Under the pieces are notes generated by a model that was not told the DNA's origin, did no database searches, and saw only the letters and a list, made by a program, of their open reading frames with translations. Below, one piece after another: positions 14,747 through 43,573 of a stretch of DNA of 64,000 nucleotides. Location of the stretch: contig NZ_WLZW01000001.1 of assembly GCF_009707665.1 (NCBI RefSeq), positions 1,116,001 through 1,180,000 of the forward strand, written 5' to 3'. The DNA comes from Planomicrobium sp. YIM 101495. Lineage in GTDB: Bacteria; Bacillota; Bacilli; Bacillales_A; Planococcaceae. How positions within the stretch are numbered: position 1 is the first letter of the stretch; every line of letters starts with the position of its first letter. The position numbers were made by a program, and so were the translations under genes.

Positions 14747-17700
14747 GTGAAACAAATCATCAACTTTTCCTTGAACAATAAATTCGCAGTTTGGATATTG
14801 ACGTTCATGGTTGTCGTAGCAGGATTATTCTCAGGTTTGACGATGAAGCAAGAGTCGATCCCGAACATCACATTACCTGCATTGACAGTCATCACCGTTT
14901 ATCCAGGAGCCGCGCCTGAAGAAGTCGCGGATGAAGTGACGATTCCACAAGAAGCAAGATTACAGAACCTTGCCGGACTGGAGACGATCACCTCTTCTTC
15001 CATGGCGAATGCCTCCTCATTGCAGCTCCAATTCTCATTTGAAACGGATATGGATGAAGCAGCAAGTGAAGTGGAAGACGCACTCGGTGAAGTCGGCTTG
15101 CCTGATAGCGCACAAGAGCCGAGCGTCATGCGTATCAGCCTTGACGCACTTCCCGTCTTGACATTGAGCGCCAGCAGCGCGGGCAACTCGATCGAAGAAT
15201 TGACGGAAATCGTCGAAACTGAAGTATTGCCTGAATTCCAAAGCATCGATGGCATGCAGGACGTCCAGATCACTGGGCAACAAGTCCAAAGCGTGTCCAT
15301 GCAGTTGAACGAAGAGCAAATGGCCCAATACGGCCTAACGGAAGAAACGATCACTCAATTGATCCAAGCTTCCAATATCACGTTCCCTCTTGGCTTGACG
15401 AATTTCGACGGAGAACTGAAGAACCTCGTCATCGACGGGAACTTCGCAACAATCGATGACCTGCGCAACCTGCAGATCCCAGCTGTACCTGCTGGAGCAC
15501 CTGGAGCTGACGCTGGCGCACCGGGGGGACAATCACCTGGCGCTGGCATGGAAGCACCTGAAGGAACTCCGCCTGGCGGAGAACTCGCTGCTCCGGCACT
15601 GCCGACCGTTCCACTGAGCGACTTGGCAGAAATCGAAGTGGTCAGTGAAGCAGAGTCCATTTCACGAACAGACGGCGAACAATCGATCGGGATCCAGATC
15701 ATCAAAGCTCCCGATGCCAACACGGTTGAAGTCGTCAACAAAGTGAAAGATGCAGCAACACAGCTTGAAGAAGACTTCGGCATCACGCTCACATCAACAT
15801 TCGACCAGGCTGAACCAATCGAACAATCGGTTGAGACGATGCTGTCAAAAGCATTGTTCGGTATTTTGTTTGCGATCGTCATCATTCTCTTGTTCTTGAG
15901 AAGCTTTAAAACGACATTCATCGCAGCGATCTCGATCCCGTTGTCGCTTCTCATGGCGATTTTCCTGTTGGATCAGCTTGATATCACACTCAACATCATG
16001 ACGCTCGGCGCGTTGACGGTCGCGATCGGCCGGGTCATCGATGACTCGATCGTCGTCATTGAAAACATTTATCGCCGAATGTCATTGCCTGGCGAAAAAC
16101 TGCGCGGCAAAGAATTGGTTCGCGAATCAACACGCCAAATGTTCATCCCGATCTTCTCATCTACGATTGTCACGATCGCAGTATTCCTACCGCTAGCACT
16201 TGTCAGCGGACAGATCGGCGAATTGTTCCTGCCATTCGCACTTGCTGTTGTCTTTGCATTGTCCGCTTCCCTTCTTGTCGCGATCACGATCGTACCGCTT
16301 CTAGCGCATACGATGTTCGGCAAGAAATTGCAGGCACTTGATGAAAAAACACAGAAGAATGCTGAACACAAACCTGGCAAACTGGCTGCTTCATACGAAC
16401 GTATTCTTGAATGGGCGTTGAACCATAAGGTCATTACATTCGGTAGCGCAACAGTTCTTCTCGCAGCCAGCTTCTTCCTTCTTCCGGTGATCGGCGTTTC
16501 CTTCCTGCCTGAAGAAGAGCAAAAAGTCGTCATTGCGACGTACAGCCCGGATCCGGGTCAATTGCTTGAAGATGTAGAACAAACTGCTCTTGATGCAGAA
16601 ACGATGATTAGTGAACGCGAAGGCGTCACAAGCTATCAATACTCACTCGGCGGCGACAATCCGATGAGTGCAATGGGCGGCGGCGGAGACAATTCTGCAT
16701 TGTTCTTCATTGAATATGATAGTGAATACGAAAACTTCGATGGCGAAAGCAAGCGCCTGATTGAAGAATTGAACGCTTCAGCCGAAGCTGGCGAGTGGGG
16801 GTCACTCGATTTCACTTCGATGGGCGGCAACAACATGGAGCTCTTCGTATACGGCAACAACCTTGAAGATCTGCAAACAGCAATCGACCAGATCCAGCCG
16901 GTACTTGAACAGCACGAAGAACTTGAAAACATCGAATCCGGTTTGAACGAAGCCTACGATCAATACACGTTGGTTGCAAATCAAGAAGCACTTAGCCAAA
17001 ACGGACTAACGCCTGCCCAGATCGGCATGGCCCTCAGCAGTCAAAGTGAAGCGCCTGTCTTGACGACGGTCCGCAACGATAACAAAGACTTGGATGTTTA
17101 CATTGAAGTCGAAGAAGCGGAATATGCCAGCATCGACGAAGTAACGGATGTCCAAATTCCGACGGCTCTTGGTACAACTGTTTCCATCGGTGACGTCGTC
17201 GACATCGAAGAGGGGAAATCGCCAGACACGATTACACGTCGTGACGGCAAGATCTACACTTCCCTATCTGCTGAAATTCTTGGCAACGACCCGACGACTG
17301 TCACAAGCGAAATCGACAAAGAAATCCAAGAACTCGATCTCCCTAGCGGTGTCACTGTCGATTATGGCGGAATCACTGAACAGATCAACGAGTCCTTCAC
17401 TCAACTCGGACTTGCGATGCTCGCAGCGATTGCGATTGTCTACTTTGTCCTAGTGGTTACATTCGGCGGAGCACTTGCTCCATTCTCGATCCTGTTCTCC
17501 TTACCGTTCACGGTCATCGGGGTACTGGTCGCACTATGGATCACAGGTGAATCATTGAGTGTCAACGCATTGATCGGAGTATTGATGCTGATCGGTATCG
17601 TAGTCACGAACGCCATCGTACTGATCGACCGCGTCATCCACAAGGAAAAAGAAGGCATGACGACGCGCGCTGCTTTGATTGAAGCTGGCGGTACACGTCT

Positions 17701-17905
17701 ACGCCCGATCTTGATGACGGCTCTTGCAACAATCGGGGCATTGATCCCGCTTGCGATCGGAGCAGAAGGTGGCGGCGGTCTTATCTCGAAAGGCCTCGGC
17801 ATCACAGTTATCGGCGGTCTCATCAGCTCAACGTTGTTGACGTTGCTGATTGTGCCGATTGTCTATGAAGTCACTGCGAAGTTCCGCAAAAAAGAATTGA
17901 AATAA
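14747..17905 (+). CDS. swrC: RND multidrug efflux permease (SwrC/YerP-like)
   Basis: A 1052-residue resistance-nodulation-division transporter: two repeats of one helix, a large extracellular loop and five helices. The proton-relay acidic pair is in GRVIDDSIVVIENIYRRM on TM4, and the second half ends with LMLIGIVVTNAIVLIDRV. No membrane fusion protein or outer channel is encoded nearby, as for Gram-positive SwrC, which exports surfactin and acriflavine. The first large loop carries an unusual Gly/Ala/Pro-rich insert at about residues 245-285. A second Gly-rich patch (MGGGGDN) lies near 645. The GTG start has AAGGAG 8 nt upstream. A strong terminator follows. Confidence 0.92.
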   Translation: MKQIINFSLNNKFAVWILTFMVVVAGLFSGLTMKQESIPNITLPALTVITVYPGAAPEEVADEVTIPQEARLQNLAGLETITSSSMANASSLQLQFSFETDMDEAASEVEDALGEVGLPDSAQEPSVMRISLDALPVLTLSASSAGNSIEELTEIVETEVLPEFQSIDGMQDVQITGQQVQSVSMQLNEEQMAQYGLTEETITQLIQASNITFPLGLTNFDGELKNLVIDGNFATIDDLRNLQIPAVPAGAPGADAGAPGGQSPGAGMEAPEGTPPGGELAAPALPTVPLSDLAEIEVVSEAESISRTDGEQSIGIQIIKAPDANTVEVVNKVKDAATQLEEDFGITLTSTFDQAEPIEQSVETMLSKALFGILFAIVIILLFLRSFKTTFIAAISIPLSLLMAIFLLDQLDITLNIMTLGALTVAIGRVIDDSIVVIENIYRRMSLPGEKLRGKELVRESTRQMFIPIFSSTIVTIAVFLPLALVSGQIGELFLPFALAVVFALSASLLVAITIVPLLAHTMFGKKLQALDEKTQKNAEHKPGKLAASYERILEWALNHKVITFGSATVLLAASFFLLPVIGVSFLPEEEQKVVIATYSPDPGQLLEDVEQTALDAETMISEREGVTSYQYSLGGDNPMSAMGGGGDNSALFFIEYDSEYENFDGESKRLIEELNASAEAGEWGSLDFTSMGGNNMELFVYGNNLEDLQTAIDQIQPVLEQHEELENIESGLNEAYDQYTLVANQEALSQNGLTPAQIGMALSSQSEAPVLTTVRNDNKDLDVYIEVEEAEYASIDEVTDVQIPTALGTTVSIGDVVDIEEGKSPDTITRRDGKIYTSLSAEILGNDPTTVTSEIDKEIQELDLPSGVTVDYGGITEQINESFTQLGLAMLAAIAIVYFVLVVTFGGALAPFSILFSLPFTVIGVLVALWITGESLSVNALIGVLMLIGIVVTNAIVLIDRVIHKEKEGMTTRAALIEAGGTRLRPILMTALATIGALIPLAIGAEGGGGLISKGLGITVIGGLISSTLLTLLIVPIVYEVTAKFRKKELK

Positions 17906-34039: not shown

Positions 34040-35047
34040 TCAGGAAGCTGAGCCAAAGAATTGGAGCATCCCTTTCGCCCGTTTCTTACTGAATACGTAC
34101 AGCATGTTCAATAAGGCAAGATGAACGAACGTGGAACCGTAAAGCAATAGATGTTTCGGAGAGTAGCCACCAGTCACCAACGCTTCTTTCAGCACTTCCC
34201 GCGATAGTTTAACGGTTTTTTTATCGCGGCTGATCATGCCATTTTTCAGTAGGATTTTCCCGACGGTCAAATTGAATTTCCCGAAGACATACTTTCCACG
34301 CTCTCGTGCGAGTTGCTTATGCTTATCGTACATTAATAAGTGTCCTCTGATGACAGCCGAGTTGTTGGTCGTAATCCGTTCTCCTGGGTGCTGTTGGAAA
34401 AGGACGAGCGGCTCTTTCACGAAATCGATCCGTGTTCGTCCCGCGAGCCGAATGTAGAGATCCCAATCTTGACAGCTCGGCAAGCTCTCATCGAACCCCT
34501 CGATCTCACAAAGCAGTTCCTTCTTTACAATGATGGAAGATGTCGTATCGATACAGTTATACGCCATTAACCGATCGATCAATTGCCCGCGATGAACCGG
34601 AATAGATTTCCATAGAAGAAGATCTCCATTCATTGCATTGAATCCGGCATAGACCGCGCCGATTCCAGAATCTCTGGAAAATACTTGAAGCTGCTTCTCA
34701 AGTTTCTCAGGGCACCACTGATCATCGGAGTCCAAAAAGGCGATGAATTCACCTGTAGCTGCGCAAATCCCTGTATTACGCGCGCTTGCACCACCACTAT
34801 TCTTATCGTGACGGATATAAAGAAGTCGGGAATCCGCGATTTCTTCTATTACTGATTTCGTATCATCTTCCGAGCAATCGTCCACTACAATGATTTCGAA
34901 ATCTTGGATTGTCTGCATCTGCAAGCTTTTCAAGGCTTCTCTGACCATCGCTGCCCGATTATATGTTGGAATGACAATACTCACACGGTAACCTCTGGTT
35001 GCGGCAAAGCCCACATTGAGCCCGTTGTTTGTTCGTGAGTCCATCAT
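34040..35047 (-). CDS. Glycosyltransferase family 2 (TuaG-like)
   Basis: A 335-residue GT-A glycosyltransferase. Signatures are VSIVIPTYNRAAMVREALKSLQMQT, VVDDCSEDDT, ASARNTGI, and the DxD-like metal site in FIAFLDSDDQWCPEKLEKQL; QDWDLYIRLAG is the later catalytic ED-type block. The last 100 residues are a poorly conserved extension with a hydrophobic stretch. GGAGGAGG precedes tandem ATG codons. The start overlaps the flippase stop by 4 bp. The donor sugar is unknown. Confidence 0.92.
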   Translation of the reverse strand: MMDSRTNNGLNVGFAATRGYRVSIVIPTYNRAAMVREALKSLQMQTIQDFEIIVVDDCSEDDTKSVIEEIADSRLLYIRHDKNSGGASARNTGICAATGEFIAFLDSDDQWCPEKLEKQLQVFSRDSGIGAVYAGFNAMNGDLLLWKSIPVHRGQLIDRLMAYNCIDTTSSIIVKKELLCEIEGFDESLPSCQDWDLYIRLAGRTRIDFVKEPLVLFQQHPGERITTNNSAVIRGHLLMYDKHKQLARERGKYVFGKFNLTVGKILLKNGMISRDKKTVKLSREVLKEALVTGGYSPKHLLLYGSTFVHLALLNMLYVFSKKRAKGMLQFFGSAS

Positions 35048-36534
35048 CTGATTCCTCCTCCCGCTTGCTGGTCAACCGTTTTCTTTCTGACCAGCCCTTT
35101 TATATCCCCCACCAGATCTTTTTCGAAGAATAGGAGCAAGACGCTATAAATCACTGCGCCGCTCACGATGGTGATCAATAACAACTGTATATTTCCTGTC
35201 TCCGGCATCAACCAAAGCATGCCGGAGAGCGAGATCGCCATGATACATGCATGCAGTAATGGCATTGCGATTGTTCGCGACAGTTCCCCTAAGCAATCCC
35301 CGATGATCAAGCGGATCCGGATCGCATAATTGAGATAGAACAGGAAAATCCGCAATGCGGCCATTGCGACTGCTACGACCGCGATATCACCTGTCAACGC
35401 TGATACGTAGACAACTGCAGGGACGACGACCAACAACGACAGTTGCCAATAGAAGCTCCAACGAACTTTTCCCACCGCGATGAACAAGCTTCCACTTGGA
35501 TTGCCGAGCGAACGGAATAGCGCGTAAATGCAGAGGATCTGTACAAGCCCGATGATACTCGTCCACTCTTCTCCCAATAACAGCGGGACAGCAAATGGCG
35601 CAAGAAGCGCAAGCCCTGCATATAACGGCGCATTCAAGACCATCAGCAGATGGATGACGAACAAATACCATTTCTTCAACCGTTTTTTATCATTTTGGAT
35701 TTGGGAAAAAATCGGTAACGATAATTTGGTGATGACAGGGTTCAACTTTTGGACCGGCTGCATGACCAAGTTGATTGCCATGCTGTAAAATGCCAGCAAT
35801 TGCGGTCCCAGCATCACACCGATGACAATTTGGTCGATTTTCGTGTTGACCGTATTTGCAGCTGTCGCGCCGAGACGATACATCCCGAACGACACGAGTT
35901 CTTTTATTGCACTCCAGGAGAATTCAATATCCGGCTTCGATTCTATATCCCGGAAGCCGATGATGATCCATGGAATTGTCTTGGTCACCACCATCGCCAA
36001 GTATCCCCAGACGACCGCCCACACCCCGATGTGGAAAAAGATGACGAGTGACAGCGTGACAACCGTGCCACATACAGCCGCAAAGACTTCAACTTTCGTC
36101 AAGTCCTTGAATTCCATCCTTTTGACGGCAAGCGTCTGAAATTGGAGTCCGAATGGGATGATGATAAAGCTGATGCCCACGACCTGGATCATCATCGTCA
36201 GTTCCGGCGCCCGAAAAGCACCAGCGATGAACGGCGCAGCCGCCAGCAATAAGCAAAATAGGACGACCCCCGCTACGATCGAAAACCAGTACAGGCTCGA
36301 TAAAGAAGTACGGCTGATCTTTTTCTTGTGGACGATCGCATCCGTGATGCCCATGTCCATAAGCAACTGGGAAAACTGGATGACGATTTGAATCAATGCA
36401 ATCAAACCGAATATTTCCGGTCCGAGCAGTCGGCCAAGAACAATCAACTGGATTATCTGCAAAAGACTGACTGATGCAACTGATAATGAAGTGAACTTCA
36501 CTCCCGCTGATGCTTTTGTTTTTAATTCAGACAT
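35044..36534 (-). CDS. Polysaccharide flippase, MOP superfamily (TuaB/WzxC-like)
   Basis: A 496-residue membrane protein with about 14 helices, a lipid-linked oligosaccharide flippase. Typical are SVSLLQIIQLIVLGRLLGPEIFGLIALI near the start and FLQ/RMEFKDLTKVE cytosolic loops between helices, characteristic of the WzxC/TuaB branch. It exports undecaprenyl-linked repeat units for polymerisation outside. It is one of two flippase genes of the operon. It starts about 20 bp after the stop of the multidomain protein gene. Confidence 0.9.
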   Translation of the reverse strand: MSELKTKASAGVKFTSLSVASVSLLQIIQLIVLGRLLGPEIFGLIALIQIVIQFSQLLMDMGITDAIVHKKKISRTSLSSLYWFSIVAGVVLFCLLLAAAPFIAGAFRAPELTMMIQVVGISFIIIPFGLQFQTLAVKRMEFKDLTKVEVFAAVCGTVVTLSLVIFFHIGVWAVVWGYLAMVVTKTIPWIIIGFRDIESKPDIEFSWSAIKELVSFGMYRLGATAANTVNTKIDQIVIGVMLGPQLLAFYSMAINLVMQPVQKLNPVITKLSLPIFSQIQNDKKRLKKWYLFVIHLLMVLNAPLYAGLALLAPFAVPLLLGEEWTSIIGLVQILCIYALFRSLGNPSGSLFIAVGKVRWSFYWQLSLLVVVPAVVYVSALTGDIAVVAVAMAALRIFLFYLNYAIRIRLIIGDCLGELSRTIAMPLLHACIMAISLSGMLWLMPETGNIQLLLITIVSGAVIYSVLLLFFEKDLVGDIKGLVRKKTVDQQAGGGIR

Positions 36535-36554: not shown

Positions 36555-38663
36555 TTAGTATAGGATTTTCCTCCACATTTTTACTCGCTGCCTTCCTTCG
36601 ATTCCAAATGGCCGATCTTCCGGGAAGTCTTCCGGAAACCCAAGAAGGTCGAACGATTCGCTGCTGTTTTCAGGAAGCTGTTCATATTGGTAAAGAAATT
36701 CGAAGTCGATCACTTTCAGTCCTTCATCCGTAAGAAGCAAGTTACCCGGGTGAAAATCGATGAGCGCATAGCCCCGCTCATAAAAGAATTCCGTGATTGC
36801 GAGCACATCCTTCTTAAACCGCAGTTTCAGTGCCAACTTCTTCAGCTTTTCCACCTTCGTCCATCTCCGTGTTTCGTAGTATGGAGTGATGATGTAATTC
36901 GCACCTTCATCAAGAAGAGGCGGAATGTAAGGACTCTCCCCGCCCAGTTCGCCGTATACAAGCTTCTCGCGCATCAGAAAACGTTCATTTCCTGCTTTGT
37001 ACGTTTTCTTCACTGCCTTGATGCCGTCAAAGTCGATCAGTTCGACTTTCGCCCTTCGGCGGAGTTCGGACAAGTCCCCCAGTACCGTTTCTTCCGTTTC
37101 ATAGTCTTGGTCCCACTGCATGATTTTGGTTATTATTTGCGGCATCAGTTCTGGTGCGACAGCATCAATGTATTCAAGTGCTTCTGTTTCGTCGTCCGAA
37201 CTGTGGATTGCATTCGCCCGCTGCTCTGGTGCAAATTGATGATTGATTTCATCGCGTAATCCGAACTTCAAAAAGTAATTGGCATTCGTCACATACGGAT
37301 GTTCCATCCTTCGCTTCGCCACGTGTTTCTGCGGATGATAATCATACAAGACGAGTAAAACCGCAGGTTCTCCGCCGCTCACTTTCCACGGACCACTTCC
37401 CCAGTTTCCCCCGCGGATGTTTTGCTTCGCTTCCTTACGCTGTCGCTCATCCAGATGAACAGCTTCCACAAGCTTCAGTCCCGCCTTGTCCAGCCAGTCC
37501 ATGATGAACTCTTCTTTTCCGTTTTGCACAGCCCAGTCCCGGATGACAAACGTCATCAGCTCCCCACTTTTTACGAACTGACGTGTCTGCTCAGGCTCGA
37601 GCGTTTTCAACCACGTGTTCCGGACACTTAGTTTTCGAATCGTATCCGTCGCTGGCGCCCACCCTTCCGCTTTTAAGAAGCGGTGCAAATAAGGCAGATT
37701 CAGCTGCTCGAACTCCATACTATTCATGATCGACAGCTCATACAACAACGTCGGATAATCATGGTCCGCCTTCTCGATCGACGGCTTGTCCCGTTCTGTC
37801 AGCGGAAAGCCTGATTTGAGCCCCTTATGATAAACCGCATGGTACAGCAAACTCAGGAAATAGTTCCTTAAATCCGGAATCGGAAATGCACTTTTCCACT
37901 GCACAGGATTCTCCAGAATCTTCTCAGCCAAATGCGGTGGATAGTAAGCCATCTGTTCGTAGCCACTTCCTTCCATGCCGCTGACGCTGTAAAGGTCGAA
38001 TGGTACGATTCCGACTTTTTCATCCAACGCATTCCGGATCGCTTCCAAATCACAGTCAGCCACAAGCAGATCGATATCTTCATCTAAGCTAGTGAATGGA
38101 ATCTCTTCATGCCAGCGCAGGACTACAAAGGAAAGCTCAGCATCCAACAGTTCTGCCAGGAAAGGCTTCACCGGGACGAACGGAGACAAATAAGAGCGTG
38201 GCGCTTTTTGCACCTCATGCTCCCTTATCAAGACGATGAAATTCTGTGAACGACCTTCGTGTACAAGGTTTCTATATTGAAATCCCCAGTTTTTCCTCCG
38301 CCCCCTTTTATACGCCACCAAGCCTAGGAAATTCACGTAATCAAATGGCAAGGTCGGATGAAAAAGAATGAACGTTGCTCCCGAATTCATCGCTTGTCGC
38401 ACTTCCTCGATTCGCGCGTTCTCTAGTACAATCACTTCGGCATTGTTCGCGCGAATGACTCCTGAATCTTCCGTATGGTAAAACTTATCGGACCGCTCCG
38501 TTTCGATCTCTTCCGTTACTGTCCCCAAGTAGTTTTGATTCCCTTTCTGCTCCAACTCATCGCACAACCGATCAGAAACAGCACCAACGTGTAAGACTCT
38601 TGGCGACTTCCGTTCCACATAAAGCCCTTCGATAAAAGCCGCAACCGTTGCCCCCTGTCCCAT
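36555..38663 (-). CDS. Multidomain protein: nucleotidyltransferase-like, NDK-like and kinase-like regions, unknown function
   Basis: A 702-residue soluble protein that I do not recognise as a named family. Four parts can be seen. About 15-165: weak Rossmann/methyltransferase-like pattern (RVLHVGAVSDRLCDEL; ATFILFHPTLP). About 170-330: nucleotidyltransferase-like, with LDEDIDLLV (Asp196, Asp198). About 365-510: nucleoside-diphosphate-kinase-like, with FVIRDWAVQ, AGLKLVEAVHL, GGEPAVLLVLYD and NAIHSSDDETEA (His487 at the catalytic NDK His). About 530-700: protein/LPS-kinase-like, with AVKKTY, LIDFHPGNLLL (Asp636, Asn641) and VIDFEF (Asp653). The start at 38663 has GGGAG 8 nt upstream. It lies between rfbB and a flippase gene in the glycan operon, so modification of a sugar or lipid-linked glycan is the best guess. 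Confidence 0.75.
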   Translation of the reverse strand: MGQGATVAAFIEGLYVERKSPRVLHVGAVSDRLCDELEQKGNQNYLGTVTEEIETERSDKFYHTEDSGVIRANNAEVIVLENARIEEVRQAMNSGATFILFHPTLPFDYVNFLGLVAYKRGRRKNWGFQYRNLVHEGRSQNFIVLIREHEVQKAPRSYLSPFVPVKPFLAELLDAELSFVVLRWHEEIPFTSLDEDIDLLVADCDLEAIRNALDEKVGIVPFDLYSVSGMEGSGYEQMAYYPPHLAEKILENPVQWKSAFPIPDLRNYFLSLLYHAVYHKGLKSGFPLTERDKPSIEKADHDYPTLLYELSIMNSMEFEQLNLPYLHRFLKAEGWAPATDTIRKLSVRNTWLKTLEPEQTRQFVKSGELMTFVIRDWAVQNGKEEFIMDWLDKAGLKLVEAVHLDERQRKEAKQNIRGGNWGSGPWKVSGGEPAVLLVLYDYHPQKHVAKRRMEHPYVTNANYFLKFGLRDEINHQFAPEQRANAIHSSDDETEALEYIDAVAPELMPQIITKIMQWDQDYETEETVLGDLSELRRRAKVELIDFDGIKAVKKTYKAGNERFLMREKLVYGELGGESPYIPPLLDEGANYIITPYYETRRWTKVEKLKKLALKLRFKKDVLAITEFFYERGYALIDFHPGNLLLTDEGLKVIDFEFLYQYEQLPENSSESFDLLGFPEDFPEDRPFGIEGRQRVKMWRKILY

Positions 38664-38680: not shown

Positions 38681-39709
38681 TCAACTATACGATGACTCAA
38701 GTCCGAACCGATCGCCAGGTAACAGCGCGTCATCTTGCGTCAGCACATTCCGCCACCAATCTTCGTTCTCCTGATACCATTCCACCGTCTGCTTCAGCCC
38801 TTCCTCGAAAGCGTAGCGTGGTTTCCAGCCAAGTGCTTCGATTTTGGTCGGATCAATCGCATACCGCTGATCATGTCCCGGTCGGTCCTTGACGAATTCA
38901 ATCATCTCCTGCACATTCCCGAGCAATGCCAAGACCGAATTGACTACTTCCAGATTGGAACGTTCATTTCGGCCACCAATATTGTAGACTTCACCAGCCT
39001 CACCCTTTCGCAGTACTAAATCCAATGCAGCACAATGATCGAATACATGAAGCCAGTCACGGATGTTGCGTCCGTCACCGTAGACCGGAATCTTCTCCGC
39101 ATGTACAGCCTTTGAAATAGTGAGCGGAATCAATTTCTCCGGAAAATGATACGGACCATAATTATTTGAGCAGCGCGTGATGCACACAGGCATCCCGTAC
39201 GTCTCATAATAAGATCGCGTCAACAGATCGGAAGCGGCCTTGCTCGCGCTGTACGGACTATTCGGATTGATGGGCGTTTGTTCCGTAAACAGCTCATCAC
39301 CTTCAAGCGACAACTCCCCATATACTTCATCTGTCGACACATGAACAAATTTCGCCACGCCGTTGATTCTCGAAGCTTCTAATAACACTTGCGTCCCGAC
39401 TACGTTCGTACGTACAAACGATTGCGGGTCAGCGATCGAGCGGTCTACATGGCTTTCTGCCGCAAAATGAACGACCGCATCGAACGATTCCCGCGCAAAC
39501 AACGCTTCGATCTCATAACGATCTGCGATATCCCTCTGAAAAAACCGGTAACGCCTGTCGCCTGCCAAATGTGCATGCTTCGTGAGATCCCCCGCATATG
39601 TCAGCAAATCCAGATTACACACTTGGACATCCGGATCATTCGCCAAAAGATGATGGATGAAGTTCCCTCCGATGAAACCCGCTCCGCCTGTGACAAGAAT
39701 CTTTTTCAT
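38681..39709 (-). CDS. rfbB: dTDP-glucose 4,6-dehydratase
   Basis: A 342-residue short-chain dehydrogenase/reductase. The NAD site is ILVTGGAGFIGGNF; catalytic residues appear as FVHVSTDEVYGE (Thr-Asp-Glu) and YSASKAASD (Tyr-x3-Lys); NYGPYHFPEKLIPL is diagnostic for RmlB. It converts dTDP-glucose to dTDP-4-keto-6-deoxyglucose. rfbC and rfbD, needed for rhamnose, are absent from the window, while a sugar aminotransferase gene is present, pointing to an amino sugar product. It lies 12 bp after rfbA. Confidence 0.94.
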   Translation of the reverse strand: MKKILVTGGAGFIGGNFIHHLLANDPDVQVCNLDLLTYAGDLTKHAHLAGDRRYRFFQRDIADRYEIEALFARESFDAVVHFAAESHVDRSIADPQSFVRTNVVGTQVLLEASRINGVAKFVHVSTDEVYGELSLEGDELFTEQTPINPNSPYSASKAASDLLTRSYYETYGMPVCITRCSNNYGPYHFPEKLIPLTISKAVHAEKIPVYGDGRNIRDWLHVFDHCAALDLVLRKGEAGEVYNIGGRNERSNLEVVNSVLALLGNVQEMIEFVKDRPGHDQRYAIDPTKIEALGWKPRYAFEEGLKQTVEWYQENEDWWRNVLTQDDALLPGDRFGLESSYS

Positions 39710-39721
39710 AATCTCGCTCCT

Positions 39722-40618
39722 CTATATTTGCATTTGCAGTCCAACGATACTTCGGTCAACGGCGATCTCGACCAAGTACTGTCCGTACCCCGTTTTCTTC
39801 AATGGTGCCGCCAGTTGGAGCAACTCATGTTTCCCAATGTAGCCACGCCTGTAGGCGATCTCTTCTATACAAGCCACATACAGACCTTGCCGCTTTTGGA
39901 TCGCCTCCACAAAATTAGATGCTTCAAGCAGCGCTTCGTGCGTTCCCGTATCGAGCCACGCCAAGCCTCTCCCCATGATGTTAACCTTCAGCTCCCCTCG
40001 CTTCCGGTACACTTCGATTACATCTGTAATCTCCTTCTCACCACGTGCGGAAGGTTCGATCGAACGCGCAATCTCTACAACATCCGGTCCAAAGAAATAC
40101 AAACCTGGAACGGCATAGGACGATTTTGGATCCTTCGGTTTTTCTTCGATGGACACGATGTTCATATCTTCATCCACTTCGACCACTCCATAGGCACGCG
40201 GATCTGCGACATGGCAACCGAAAATGATTCCGCCTTCTTTCAATTCCGCCGACTCCTTCAAGCGGTTCCCGAAATCCGAGCCGTAAAAGATATTATCTCC
40301 AAGCACAAGTGCCACAGGTGAATCCCCGATGAATTGCTCCCCGATGGTAAAAGCTTCTGCCAGTCCATCCGGCTTTTCCTGAATGGCGTATTCCAACTTG
40401 ATCCCGAGCTGCTGTCCGTTGCCGAGCAATTCGAGAAAACCGGCAATATCCCGCGGAGTCGAGATGATCAGGATTTCTTTGATTCCTGCCAGCATTAGCA
40501 CCGAAAGTGGATAATAAATCATCGGCTTATCGTACACTGGAAGCATTTGCTTCGAGATCGACTTAGTTAATGGATACAGACGCGTACCGGAACCACCAGC
40601 CAAAATGATGCCTTTCAT
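39722..40618 (-). CDS. rfbA: Glucose-1-phosphate thymidylyltransferase
   Basis: A 298-residue RmlA enzyme that makes dTDP-glucose from dTTP and glucose-1-phosphate. The nucleotide loop is [33 protein letters not shown] split over the first 35 residues, followed by [30 protein letters not shown] and [20 protein letters not shown], and the C-terminal [16 protein letters not shown]. All are hallmark RmlA segments. It forms a cassette with rfbB and the aminotransferase gene. Confidence 0.95.
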
Positions 40619-40631
40619 TTTTTACTCCTCC

Positions 40632-41774
40632 TCATTGTGCAATCAACGCCTGCGCATTTAGTTGTTTCAAGAAAGAACAAATCCGCTCGACCTCCCACTC
40701 GCCCAGCGCTCCGTAAAAGGGAAGTGCAAGCGTCCGGTCGACTGCCATATGGGCGTTCGGCAAATGTTCCGGTCTGCTGGACTGCAATCCGGAATACCAC
40801 TCGAAACCGCTGCACAGCGGATAAAAGTATTTGCGGGCACTGACATTTCTTTTCAGCAGCTTATCGTGGACGTCATTACGCGAACAGCCGAAACCTGCTT
40901 CATCTATTTCGATGACGAAATATTGATAGCTGCTTTCCTCACCCTCCAGATTTGTGATAATCCGGAGACCAGGCACCCCGGTCAACTCCCGCTCATAAAG
41001 CTCTTTCAGCCGTTGTCTTTTCTTCCGTTCTCTTTCGACTAGTGGCAGCACTTCAAGTCCGACTGCCGCCTGAAGCTCATTCATCTTGCCATTCAATCCC
41101 GACAGCGCTACTTGATCCGGTCCAGTGATACCGAAGTTCCTTAGCATTCGCAGTACTTCCGTGATCCGCTCATCCTTGAAGGCCAGCGCTCCGCCTTCCA
41201 CCGTATGGAAAAGCTTTGTCGCATGAAAACTGAACATCGTCATATCCCCGTAATTAGCTACCGGTACTCCGCCCGATTTGGTGCCGAAGACATGCGCACC
41301 GTCATAGATGACTTTCAAGTTGTATTTGTCGGCGATTTCCTGGATCCGCTCCACATCGCATAAATTCCCGAACACATGAACTCCGAGAATCGCTGTCGTC
41401 TTCTCCGTGATCAATGCTTCGATTTTTTTCGGGTCGATATTGAGCGTATCCGGCCGGATATCACAGAAGACCGGGGTCAGTCCATTCCAGTCAAGTGCCT
41501 GTACAGTCGCTGGAAACGTGAAAGGAGTCGTAATCACTTCACCTGACAGGCCAAGCGCTTTCAACCCAAGCAATAGTGCTATCGTTCCGTTATTGAACAA
41601 TTCAAGACGGTCAATTCCTAAAAACAGCTTCAATTCCTTCTGCAGCAACTCATGCTGTCCACCTTGATTGGTCATTTGACCACTTTCCCAAATATCTTCG
41701 AGACGCTGGACTATCCCGTCCAACGCTGGAAGCAAAGGCTTCGTCACATATACAGGCTTCGTCAATCCTTCCAT
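40632..41774 (-). CDS. DegT/DnrJ/EryC1/StrS sugar aminotransferase
   Basis: A 380-residue PLP-dependent aminotransferase. It has GGQHELLQKELKLFLG, TTPFTFPATVQAL, LGVHVFGNLCDV, IYDGAHVFGTK (PLP-binding Asp), and FSFHATKLFHTVEGGAL with the Schiff-base Lys187. The close similarity of this last block to VioA/DesI/WecE-type enzymes and the adjacent rfbA-rfbB suggest it aminates dTDP-4-keto-6-deoxyglucose at C4 (or C3 after isomerisation). The start at 41774 has AGGAGG directly upstream; 35 codons of open frame before it overlap the flippase gene and are not used. Confidence 0.92.
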   Translation of the reverse strand: MEGLTKPVYVTKPLLPALDGIVQRLEDIWESGQMTNQGGQHELLQKELKLFLGIDRLELFNNGTIALLLGLKALGLSGEVITTPFTFPATVQALDWNGLTPVFCDIRPDTLNIDPKKIEALITEKTTAILGVHVFGNLCDVERIQEIADKYNLKVIYDGAHVFGTKSGGVPVANYGDMTMFSFHATKLFHTVEGGALAFKDERITEVLRMLRNFGITGPDQVALSGLNGKMNELQAAVGLEVLPLVERERKKRQRLKELYERELTGVPGLRIITNLEGEESSYQYFVIEIDEAGFGCSRNDVHDKLLKRNVSARKYFYPLCSGFEWYSGLQSSRPEHLPNAHMAVDRTLALPFYGALGEWEVERICSFLKQLNAQALIAQ

Positions 41775-41794
41775 TTGCCATCCTCCTGAAGAAG

Positions 41795-43273
41795 TCAGCC
41801 CAAACGAGCCAGCCTCCATTTTTTCATGATCGGGAGTAATAATTTCCATAAGATGTGGAACTCCTCTCTTTTCGCCCATTTAGCCATTCCACTGTAACAA
41901 GCGATACCCACAACCACTTGGATGATCAATGTCAATGAATCCGCCGAATCGAGCAAGTGGCCGACTATATACGTAAGTGTCCCCATTCCCACAGCCAGCA
42001 GGAATGACGGGAAGAGATCCTCCAGCTGGCGGCGTACGGTATAGTTGATTTCCTTTCCTGAAAAATACATATTCAACAGTAATGCACTGTAGGAATCAAC
42101 AACGATCAATGCAACCAAACCGATCATCCCGAGGTCCAACCAAATTGCGAGGAACACGAGTCCAAGCGTCATCGAAAACTTTCCGACCTCCAAATACAGA
42201 AATATATCGGACCGCCCTTTCACTTGAAGGATATTTAAGTTCAATGCATGAATCGGATAGAGCATGCCGGCGATACAAAGCAACTGAAAATAAATGGTCA
42301 TTGGTTCCCATTGGCTGCCGAAGACAATCCGCACCATCGGCTCTGCAATCGCTGCAAGGCCGAGCATCATCGGGAAGATGAGAAAAGCGGATAACTTAAC
42401 GAGTGTCCGGTAATTATTCTTCAGCCGTTCATCTTCATCCTGGATTCTGCTGAGAACAGGATATGTCACGCGCTGGATTGCAGCTGTCAGACTCTGTGTC
42501 ACCACGTCACTGAACTTCGAAGCATTCATATAATAGCCAAGCTGCCCGGCCGAGTAATTTCTACCAATCAAGACGGCGAATAGATTCTGCCCAAGCGTAT
42601 CGATCAATCCCGACACAAGGAGCTTCCAGCCGAAATGATACAGTCGGCGGAAGGAGCGAAAACTGAATGTCCATGAAGGGAGCCACTTCTTCATGACAAA
42701 GAACAAAATCGATTGACTGGCATTCATCACTAACAAGCGAACGATCAAGCTCCAAATTCCGAATCCGCTGAATGCCATGAAAATCGCGATCAAACCTGAA
42801 AAGAGACTAGCAATCACATTGACTGTCGCTTGCGTCTTGAAATCGATTTCCTTCGATAAAATCGCGCGCGGCACAAGCTCGAATGACTTGATGATGATTG
42901 AAATCGCCATCACCCGGATGAGCATCGTCAATTGTTCTTCACCGAAGAAAGCGCCGATTGCCGGAGCCGTTAAATAAATGCACCCATACAATACGAGTGA
43001 CATGGCCAGATTGAAGTGGAATACAGTAGAATAATCGACTTGCGTCGGTTTCCTTTCCCGGATTAGCGCTTGTGTAAAGCCACTGTCAACGAGTGAATTC
43101 GATAACGCTACAAAAATCAGGACGATTCCGATCAAGCCAAAATGTTCCGGTAGGAGCAGTCGCGCCAAAATGATCTGGATGAGGAATTGCACCCCTTGAT
43201 TCCCTGCGAGGTCCCCAAAACTCCAAAGTAACCCGTTGATTGTCTTTCCCTTTAATCCTCTTTTCTTTTGCAT
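41795..43273 (-). CDS. Polysaccharide flippase, MOP superfamily (second copy)
   Basis: A 492-residue membrane flippase with about 14 helices, distinct from the one at 35-36.5 kb. WzxC-like features: TINGLLWSFGDLAGNQGVQF, LIQIILARLLLPEHFGLIGI, the VPRAILSKEIDFKTQA cytosolic loop, and SAGQLGYYMNASKFSDVV. The start at 43273 has AGGAG 7 nt upstream; 21 upstream codons are unsupported. It is the first gene of the 13-gene operon. Two flippases may mean two different lipid-linked products. Confidence 0.88.
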   Translation of the reverse strand: MQKKRGLKGKTINGLLWSFGDLAGNQGVQFLIQIILARLLLPEHFGLIGIVLIFVALSNSLVDSGFTQALIRERKPTQVDYSTVFHFNLAMSLVLYGCIYLTAPAIGAFFGEEQLTMLIRVMAISIIIKSFELVPRAILSKEIDFKTQATVNVIASLFSGLIAIFMAFSGFGIWSLIVRLLVMNASQSILFFVMKKWLPSWTFSFRSFRRLYHFGWKLLVSGLIDTLGQNLFAVLIGRNYSAGQLGYYMNASKFSDVVTQSLTAAIQRVTYPVLSRIQDEDERLKNNYRTLVKLSAFLIFPMMLGLAAIAEPMVRIVFGSQWEPMTIYFQLLCIAGMLYPIHALNLNILQVKGRSDIFLYLEVGKFSMTLGLVFLAIWLDLGMIGLVALIVVDSYSALLLNMYFSGKEINYTVRRQLEDLFPSFLLAVGMGTLTYIVGHLLDSADSLTLIIQVVVGIACYSGMAKWAKREEFHILWKLLLPIMKKWRLARLG

Positions 43274-43573
43274 CTCCTGACTCCTCAATGTCCTTTGATG
43301 AACTTCTTGTAATCTACGTTTTATTATCAAACCCAAGAAATCAAGAATTATAGACTAAAGTCACTTTCCATTTAAATTAACCCATCATACAACACCACCT
43401 TTTTTACTACTATGAATATTTAGTCTGTACTTTTTTGATAGTATAGCATACAATATACCTATTAGACAGATTTTTTAGAAAACTTTTATTTTTTATTTAC
43501 CTATTCTTATTTGAAAACACTTTTTATCGACTAAAAAATAGAGGTATTTATACCCATTAGGAGGAAACTCGAT
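43274..43573. other. AT-rich divergent promoter region of the glycan operon
   Basis: About 300 bp, very AT-rich, between the divergent flippase and FemAB-like genes. On the minus strand a TATAAT (43352-43347) with a poor -35 TTAAAT 17 nt upstream is a candidate operon promoter. On the plus strand TTGATA (43435-43440) lies in an A/T-rich stretch with several possible -10 sites. The motif TTAGTCT occurs on both strands here (43420-43426 plus; 43357-43351 minus). I see no coding potential or RNA gene. Confidence 0.5.

Follow-up and report, generated by a model that had tools for sequence, protein, structure and literature searches.

Two described systems come closest to the protein analysed here. 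In WbdD of E. coli O9a, an ePK-like kinase and a domain of methyltransferase type share one chain; the protein phosphorylates the terminal O-antigen sugar, methylates the phosphate and caps the O9a chain, which is exported by an ABC transporter, and the abstract of its description names neither a nucleotidyltransferase (NTase) nor a nucleoside-diphosphate kinase (NDK) domain (PMC3482155). In the biosynthesis of the lasso peptide pseudomycoidin by PsmK and PsmN, a serine is reported to be phosphorylated and hexoses are then put on the phosphate (PMC8498205, PMC9266682). An alternative left open in PMC9266682 is nucleotidylation followed by the action of a host glycosyltransferase; the role of PsmN may be indirect, or that of a glycosyltransferase in its own right, which counts against it as a precedent.

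The window, a stretch of 64,000 nucleotides (G000:C1:1116001-1180000) from the 2.9-Mb genome of Planomicrobium sp. YIM 101495, encodes a 702-residue protein (Table 1) that resembles WbdD in pairing a plausibly methyltransferase-type domain with a kinase within a polysaccharide pathway. It differs in possessing both an NTase and an NDK-fold domain, in a Rossmann-like part that lacks the GxG loop, in the C-terminal position of its kinase and in an operon with Wzx/Wzy-type genes in place of the ABC exporter. With PsmK/PsmN it would share the sequential action of a kinase and a nucleotidyltransferase-type enzyme on one hydroxyl, whereas those enzymes are separate proteins with a peptide substrate and no NDK domain is mentioned in the passages on PsmK/PsmN. 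A search of the open-access literature found no paper joining nucleoside-diphosphate kinase with polysaccharide, and the statement in the preliminary description of the locus that no described protein has this combination of domains agrees with the libraries and with the part of the literature, open-access papers, that was searched.

Table 1. The 702-residue protein, its domains and the neighbouring genes (positions in the window)
Feature	Position	Strand	Basis or remark
Whole gene, 702-residue four-module protein	36555..38663	-	ATG start at 38663
Residues 1-152, Rossmann/class I methyltransferase-like, no GxG loop (plausible)	38208..38663	-	Strand/helix order of model
Residues 153-365, Pol-beta-type NTase; Asp196, Asp198, Asp223 and helical tail with His275, His279	37569..38207	-	hhalign, conservation, models
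Residues 366-512, NDK fold; His487 at catalytic-His position; Arg470, Asn484, Asp490 kept	37128..37568	-	Profiles, structure matches
Residues 513-702, RIO/APH/protein-kinase-like; Lys553, Glu566, Asp636, Asn641, Asp653	36558..37127	-	Profiles, conservation, model
MOP/Wzx-type flippase, directly downstream, 20-base gap	35044..36534	-	NF007773 over cut-off; TuaB below
rfbB, dTDP-glucose 4,6-dehydratase, directly upstream	38681..39709	-	TIGR01181 481.7 bits, cut-off 365.1
rfbA, glucose-1-phosphate thymidylyltransferase	39722..40618	-	TIGR01207 451.8 bits, cut-off 360.65
DegT-family sugar aminotransferase	40632..41879	-	Best NCBIfam match DesI, under cut-off (40632-41810 scanned)
Second Wzx-type flippase, start of conserved block	41795..43336	-	Profile scan, gene order

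This domain architecture is genuine and conserved, and none of the libraries searched has a name for it. Library scans place the protein under every Pfam and NCBIfam cut-off, and neither collection has a name for its family; the closest named relatives found by sequence search are from Planococcus and Planomicrobium. A PDB sequence search with the single protein gave no credible match, and profile searches of the PDB reached kinases and, weakly, NDKs (best E 0.042). The predicted structure is a confident fold (pLDDT 88.9, pTM 0.79) in which a Rossmann/methyltransferase-like N-terminus is followed by a Pol-beta-type NTase, an NDK fold and a RIO/protein-kinase-like kinase. Since the PDB structure matches to the full model consisted of kinases and kinase-bearing complexes, residues 150-520 were also modelled on their own. 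Three phosphate-handling enzyme folds and a fourth, N-terminal domain in one chain are well supported. The preliminary description had proposed such a four-part protein from the letters of the DNA, reading LDEDIDLLV as nucleotidyltransferase-like, His487 as the counterpart of the NDK catalytic histidine and Asp636, Asn641 and Asp653 as kinase elements, and had called for structure prediction; profiles, conservation and the predicted structure support these readings. A plus-strand frame of 190 residues within the gene (36687-37259) was taken as a shadow frame.

Conservation was assessed in an alignment of 33 rows, of which 32 contain the NTase, all 33 the NDK-fold domain and 27 the kinase. Rough dN/dS values from four Planococcus pairs (dS exceeded 1 in several cells) are ∼0.01-0.05 for the NTase, NDK and kinase parts and 0.04-0.18 for the N-terminus. 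The NDK fold is the most constant part of the family, and the NTase is fused to it in 32 of the 33 aligned relatives.

The NTase acids Asp196, Asp198 and Asp223 and the tail histidines His275 and His279 are kept in all 32 NTase-bearing relatives, and in the predicted structure two neighbouring strands, 197-201 and 220-226, contain or adjoin the acids. An hhalign comparison with three proteins of PF14907 (NTP_transf_5) gave a P-value of 4.8 × 10−5 (probability 68%, 58 columns) against 0.2-0.8 for controls. Similarity to NTP_transf_5 lies in the DxD strand and its spacing; the differences are the LRW that starts the core, the long helical tail with its invariant histidines and the fusion to an NDK fold. 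The gathering score of PF14907 is missed: the family is not listed for the 702-residue protein even at E 10, and a threshold of E 1 brought it up in four of the 16 relatives scanned, with 0.015 as the best value. No solved NTase structure appears in the match lists for residues 150-520; as NDK entries fill these lists, the absence says nothing about the NTase fold. No paper on PF14907 was found among open-access papers. A Foldseek search of BFVD with a model of 37104-38216 picked up 'glycosyltransferases' of the giant viruses Yasminevirus and Catovirus, at weak E-values of 0.013 and 0.016.

The NDK fold is familiar chiefly from a housekeeping enzyme. All 50 of the VIA matches listed for the model of residues 150-520 have this fold, and His487 aligns with the catalytic histidine of the NxxHGSD block and is kept in 33/33 relatives, with the glycine that follows it changed to serine in 32 of them. 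The 33 family rows were compared with 29 NDKs from Bacilli, using the residue numbers of the human enzyme (Lys12, Tyr52, Arg88, Thr94, Arg105, Asn115, His118, Asp121 and Glu129). The positions of His118, Arg105, Asn115 and Asp121 are retained, Thr94 is Ser or Thr in 28 of 33 relatives, and Arg375 of the 702-residue protein is kept in 32. In contrast, Lys12, Tyr52, Arg88 and Glu129, invariant in all 29 NDKs, are replaced: Lys12 by Arg (32/33), Tyr52 by Asn, Gln, Ser or Arg, Arg88 by Lys (22/33; other residues in the rest) and Glu129 by Tyr (31/33). The domain also scores 16.3 bits against the PF00334 gathering score of 27. Because the pocket is altered at these four positions, residues 366-512 are, as judged from sequence, an NDK-fold domain and not a plain NDK, and a plain NDP-kinase reading was rejected on the pocket residues. 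Fold, catalytic histidine with its flanking Asn and Asp, and the Arg105 and Thr/Ser94 positions are those of an NDK, so that a phosphorylatable histidine is present, whereas the phosphate grip and the partner of the histidine differ, as does the placement between an NTase and a kinase. The altered pocket could equally mean lost activity.

In the kinase domain, Lys553, Glu566, Asp636, Asn641 and Asp653 are kept in all 27 kinase-bearing rows of the 33, and structure matches to the full model identify a RIO/protein-kinase-like fold. The fold and this Lys-Glu-Asp-Asn-Asp set are shared with RIO1/RIO2, PRPK and the protein and APH kinases, from which the domain differs in having DFE for DFG, in its fusion to an NTase-NDK core and in reaching no family cut-off (for APH, 14.4 against 23.2 bits in Pfam). 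The last helix of the model spans residues 692-701, and a WbdD-type C-terminal coiled coil beyond the kinase is absent from it. The 702-residue protein is thus a member of none of its parent families; it is kept out of the NDK family because, in spite of the fold, its pocket residues are not those of NDKs and its score lies under the cut-off.

Residues 1-152 are, by column counts and dN/dS, the least conserved part and are missing in several relatives, L009 and L010 among them. A Rossmann/methyltransferase-like fold, of which a weak Rossmann-like pattern had been noted earlier, is plausible from the strand and helix order of the model; sequence profiles do not settle the fold. Methyltransferase motif I has no GxG, with Asn at position 27 in 17 of the 23 rows that contain it, and although hhalign against methyltransferases gave a P-value of 0.017, the test is non-specific since the NDK block scored 0.007 against the same set.

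Within the operon, the DegT, rfbA, rfbB, 702-residue protein and downstream flippase genes lie on the same strand with gaps of 12-20 bases. The gene row begins with the second flippase and continues past these five genes with a GT2 and a Wzy-like gene, followed by Wzz, an AAA_31 (BY-kinase-type) ATPase, an NTP_transferase that is presumably GalU-type, GT4, WecG/TagA and a UDP-glucose/GDP-mannose dehydrogenase. Matches of the flippase and GT2 proteins include, under cut-off, the teichuronic acid proteins TuaB and TuaG. The order Wzx-DegT-RfbA-RfbB-702-residue protein-Wzx is kept in six of six Planococcus loci (L001-L006), with GT2 further on, and from the gene order here and in these relatives co-transcription with rfbAB, the aminotransferase and the flippase, as first proposed, is likely. 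In 12 further loci that were read, no match to the RfbA or DegT protein of the window was found beside the relative. In 10 of those 12, at least one glycan gene is nearby or fused, identified by Pfam in L007, L008, L009, L010, L077 and L080 and by similarity to a window gene in L076, L078, L079 and L081; none of the glycan genes tested was found near L074 and L075. Two Wzx-type flippases flank the DegT-RfbA-RfbB-702-residue block in the window and in all six relatives, and perhaps serve two lipid-linked products. A carbamoyltransferase gene (L010:12785-14458) lies two genes from the Bacteroidetes relative, and a 906-residue glutamine-amidotransferase/asparagine-synthase and GT2 protein (L008:3313-6033) is encoded directly after the Pleurocapsa relative.

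The genome searches took in 1,636 genomes. Within the genus, 22 of 46 genomes carry the family, its own included: 18 have the full form at 19 loci and four (G003, G005, G007 and G025) a short NTase-NDK form of ∼422 residues. G036 has two diverged full-length copies, L028 and L036, on separate contigs. None of 14 genomes from other genera of the family Planococcaceae has a relative, and three genomes of the class beyond it (G060, G069 and G072) match over the kinase part only. In the phylum sample 28 of 398 genomes match at E 0.001, all except its own with a single module. At a threshold of E 1e-15, and with the centre genome counted in, relatives were found in 3/339 genomes of the phylum of Waterburya (4/148 of its order, three of these being the same genomes), 5/345 of that of the Bacteroidetes MAG and 2/191 of that of the Bdellovibrionia MAG. 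A scan of genome contigs recovered 10 relatives (six from Planococcus/Planomicrobium and one each from Waterburya, Pleurocapsa, Bdellovibrionia and Bacteroidetes); plasmid and phage records and viral contigs contained none. The family is thus rare and patchy, occurring rarely in cyanobacteria, Bacteroidetes and Bdellovibrionia and mostly beside glycan genes, a spread that would be expected of genes moving with polysaccharide clusters.

The modules also occur apart. NTase and NDK are found without the kinase in L029-L032, L068 and L079, and in L072, a copy with stops; L084, cut by a contig end, is outside the module counts. NDK and kinase occur without the NTase in L069 (1492-2535), where the NDK part keeps His487 and is changed at Arg375, Arg470, Asn484 and Asp490, changes that may hint that the NDK and NTase parts need each other. 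A protein of ∼1,945 residues (L077:7501-13338) comprises TPR, GT41 and FkbM methyltransferase parts with the NTase-NDK-kinase set as its C-terminal part; a neighbouring gene product resembles a flagellar cap protein, so that flagellin glycosylation is a possible role of this locus.

Of the four kinase-less types of locus with readable surroundings, two have an APH-type kinase gene of their own nearby. It lies a few genes off in 4/4 short-form genomes of the genus, with the L080 kinase (the query) 99, 62 and 60% identical to those of L122, L081 and L123. With 7-10 APH matches in each of these genomes, the number expected by position for 5.5 kb to each side is ∼0.03 per locus; the four loci count as one event because they come from sister species. 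In L078 an APH kinase adjoins a broken NTase-NDK gene in a genome with five APH matches. The short protein of L078 shares 52% identity with that of Planococcus over 381 residues, which leaves these cases short of full independence, although no likeness between their APH kinases can be recognised (18.8%, E 0.5). In G000, G011, G019, G022 and G041 the fused form has no APH match for 11 kb around it, and that of G100 has a weak one ∼6 kb away; nor is there a match near the kinase-less loci L074 (G495) and L079 (G1104). A kinase is thus encoded with an NTase, as for PsmK/PsmN, by fusion here and by an APH gene nearby in the short-form genomes and L078, and such a kinase is unseen in L074 and L079. 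PsmK itself is an HPr-kinase-type enzyme. The separate APH kinases of loci that lack the kinase module, the separation and rejoining of modules and the changes in L069 amount to hints, and not proof, of joint action. L074 and L079 both have a gene for a ParB-like protein, and the two are related (30% identity over 118 residues, E 3e-7). Such proteins (L074:8941-9813; L079:8354-9241 and 16910-17833; motifs GGAHRSAAL and EGNHRVSAL) adjoin the kinase-less NTase-NDK genes, match nothing in Pfam at thresholds up to E 10 and are possibly a substitute kinase of ParB/Srx fold. A further gene of L079 encodes a weakly dNK-like P-loop protein.

That the protein decorates a glycan is plausible. The preferred reading, a tentative one, is a multi-module phosphotransferase making a phosphate-linked decoration in Wzx/Wzy-type polysaccharide assembly, which is consistent with catalytic sets kept wherever the respective domain is present. 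The C-terminal kinase would carry out a WbdD-like, ATP-dependent phosphorylation of a hydroxyl on a glycan intermediate or small substituent, and the NTase would join this phosphate to a second group in the manner of PsmK/PsmN, giving a phosphodiester or a nucleotide-activated product. His487 of the NDK-fold domain would carry the phosphoryl group between kinase and NTase, or charge or discharge the nucleotide of the NTase. Since relatives do without it, the degenerate N-terminal domain may be a docking or acceptor-binding part, and the adjacent Wzx would flip the decorated product. It is rather doubtful that kinase, phospho-histidine carrier (His487) and Pol-beta NTase pass phosphate or nucleotide along the chain to form a phosphodiester-linked glycan decoration, an arrangement in which the NDK fold would relay phosphoryl groups in place of NDP/NTP exchange.

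Only the kinase might act, phosphorylating a sugar to cap or time the chain as WbdD does, with the remaining parts worn-out glycan or nucleotide binders. The domain pairing of WbdD and an N-terminus that is methyltransferase-like yet lacks the GxG loop point this way; the invariance of the NTase acids and of His487 does not, and several relatives retain NTase and NDK with no kinase fused to them, which argues that the two are no mere kinase accessories, which makes this reading unlikely. More improbable still is nucleotide supply, in which the NDK part would regenerate dTTP or UTP from pathway NDPs and channel them to RfbA and the glycosyltransferases. The fold, its catalytic histidine and the nearby rfbA would fit, but the Lys12, Tyr52, Arg88 and Glu129 positions are changed, an ordinary ndk is encoded at another place in the genome (C1:643218-643619) and no RfbA match came from L080 and L081, Planococcus stretches with the short form; the earlier suggestion that the protein supplies phosphates, if read as NDP-kinase action, has therefore become less likely.

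Little probability attaches to a regulatory role, in which a nucleotide-sensing kinase would phosphorylate Wzx, Wzz, Wzy or itself and set polysaccharide output. While the RIO/protein-kinase-like fold and the presence of Wzz and the AAA_31 ATPase in the operon are compatible with it, some relatives lack the kinase, and in two types of these its place is taken by a gene for an APH kinase, whose family has mostly small molecules as substrates; the GT41 and FkbM domains of the L077 fusion suggest biosynthesis. Tailoring of an amino sugar, with the protein activating a carboxylate or other group and loading it on the RfbA-RfbB-DegT product, would account for the fixed position after RfbB in 6/6 Planococcus loci, the DesI match of the aminotransferase, albeit under cut-off, and the lack of an acyltransferase among the 10 operon proteins scanned (part of the operon); it is very unlikely given that RfbA and DegT matches are missing beside the relatives in the 12 further loci.

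The family is spread over the phyla of Planococcus, Waterburya, the Bacteroidetes MAG and the Bdellovibrionia MAG, mostly in glycan loci. A phosphoryl relay, if true, would be of a new kind; otherwise the protein would be a variant of glycan-modifying phosphotransferases. If its parts work together, the family would point to an undescribed phosphate-based glycan decoration and would open a way into the uncharacterised enzymes that resemble NTP_transf_5.
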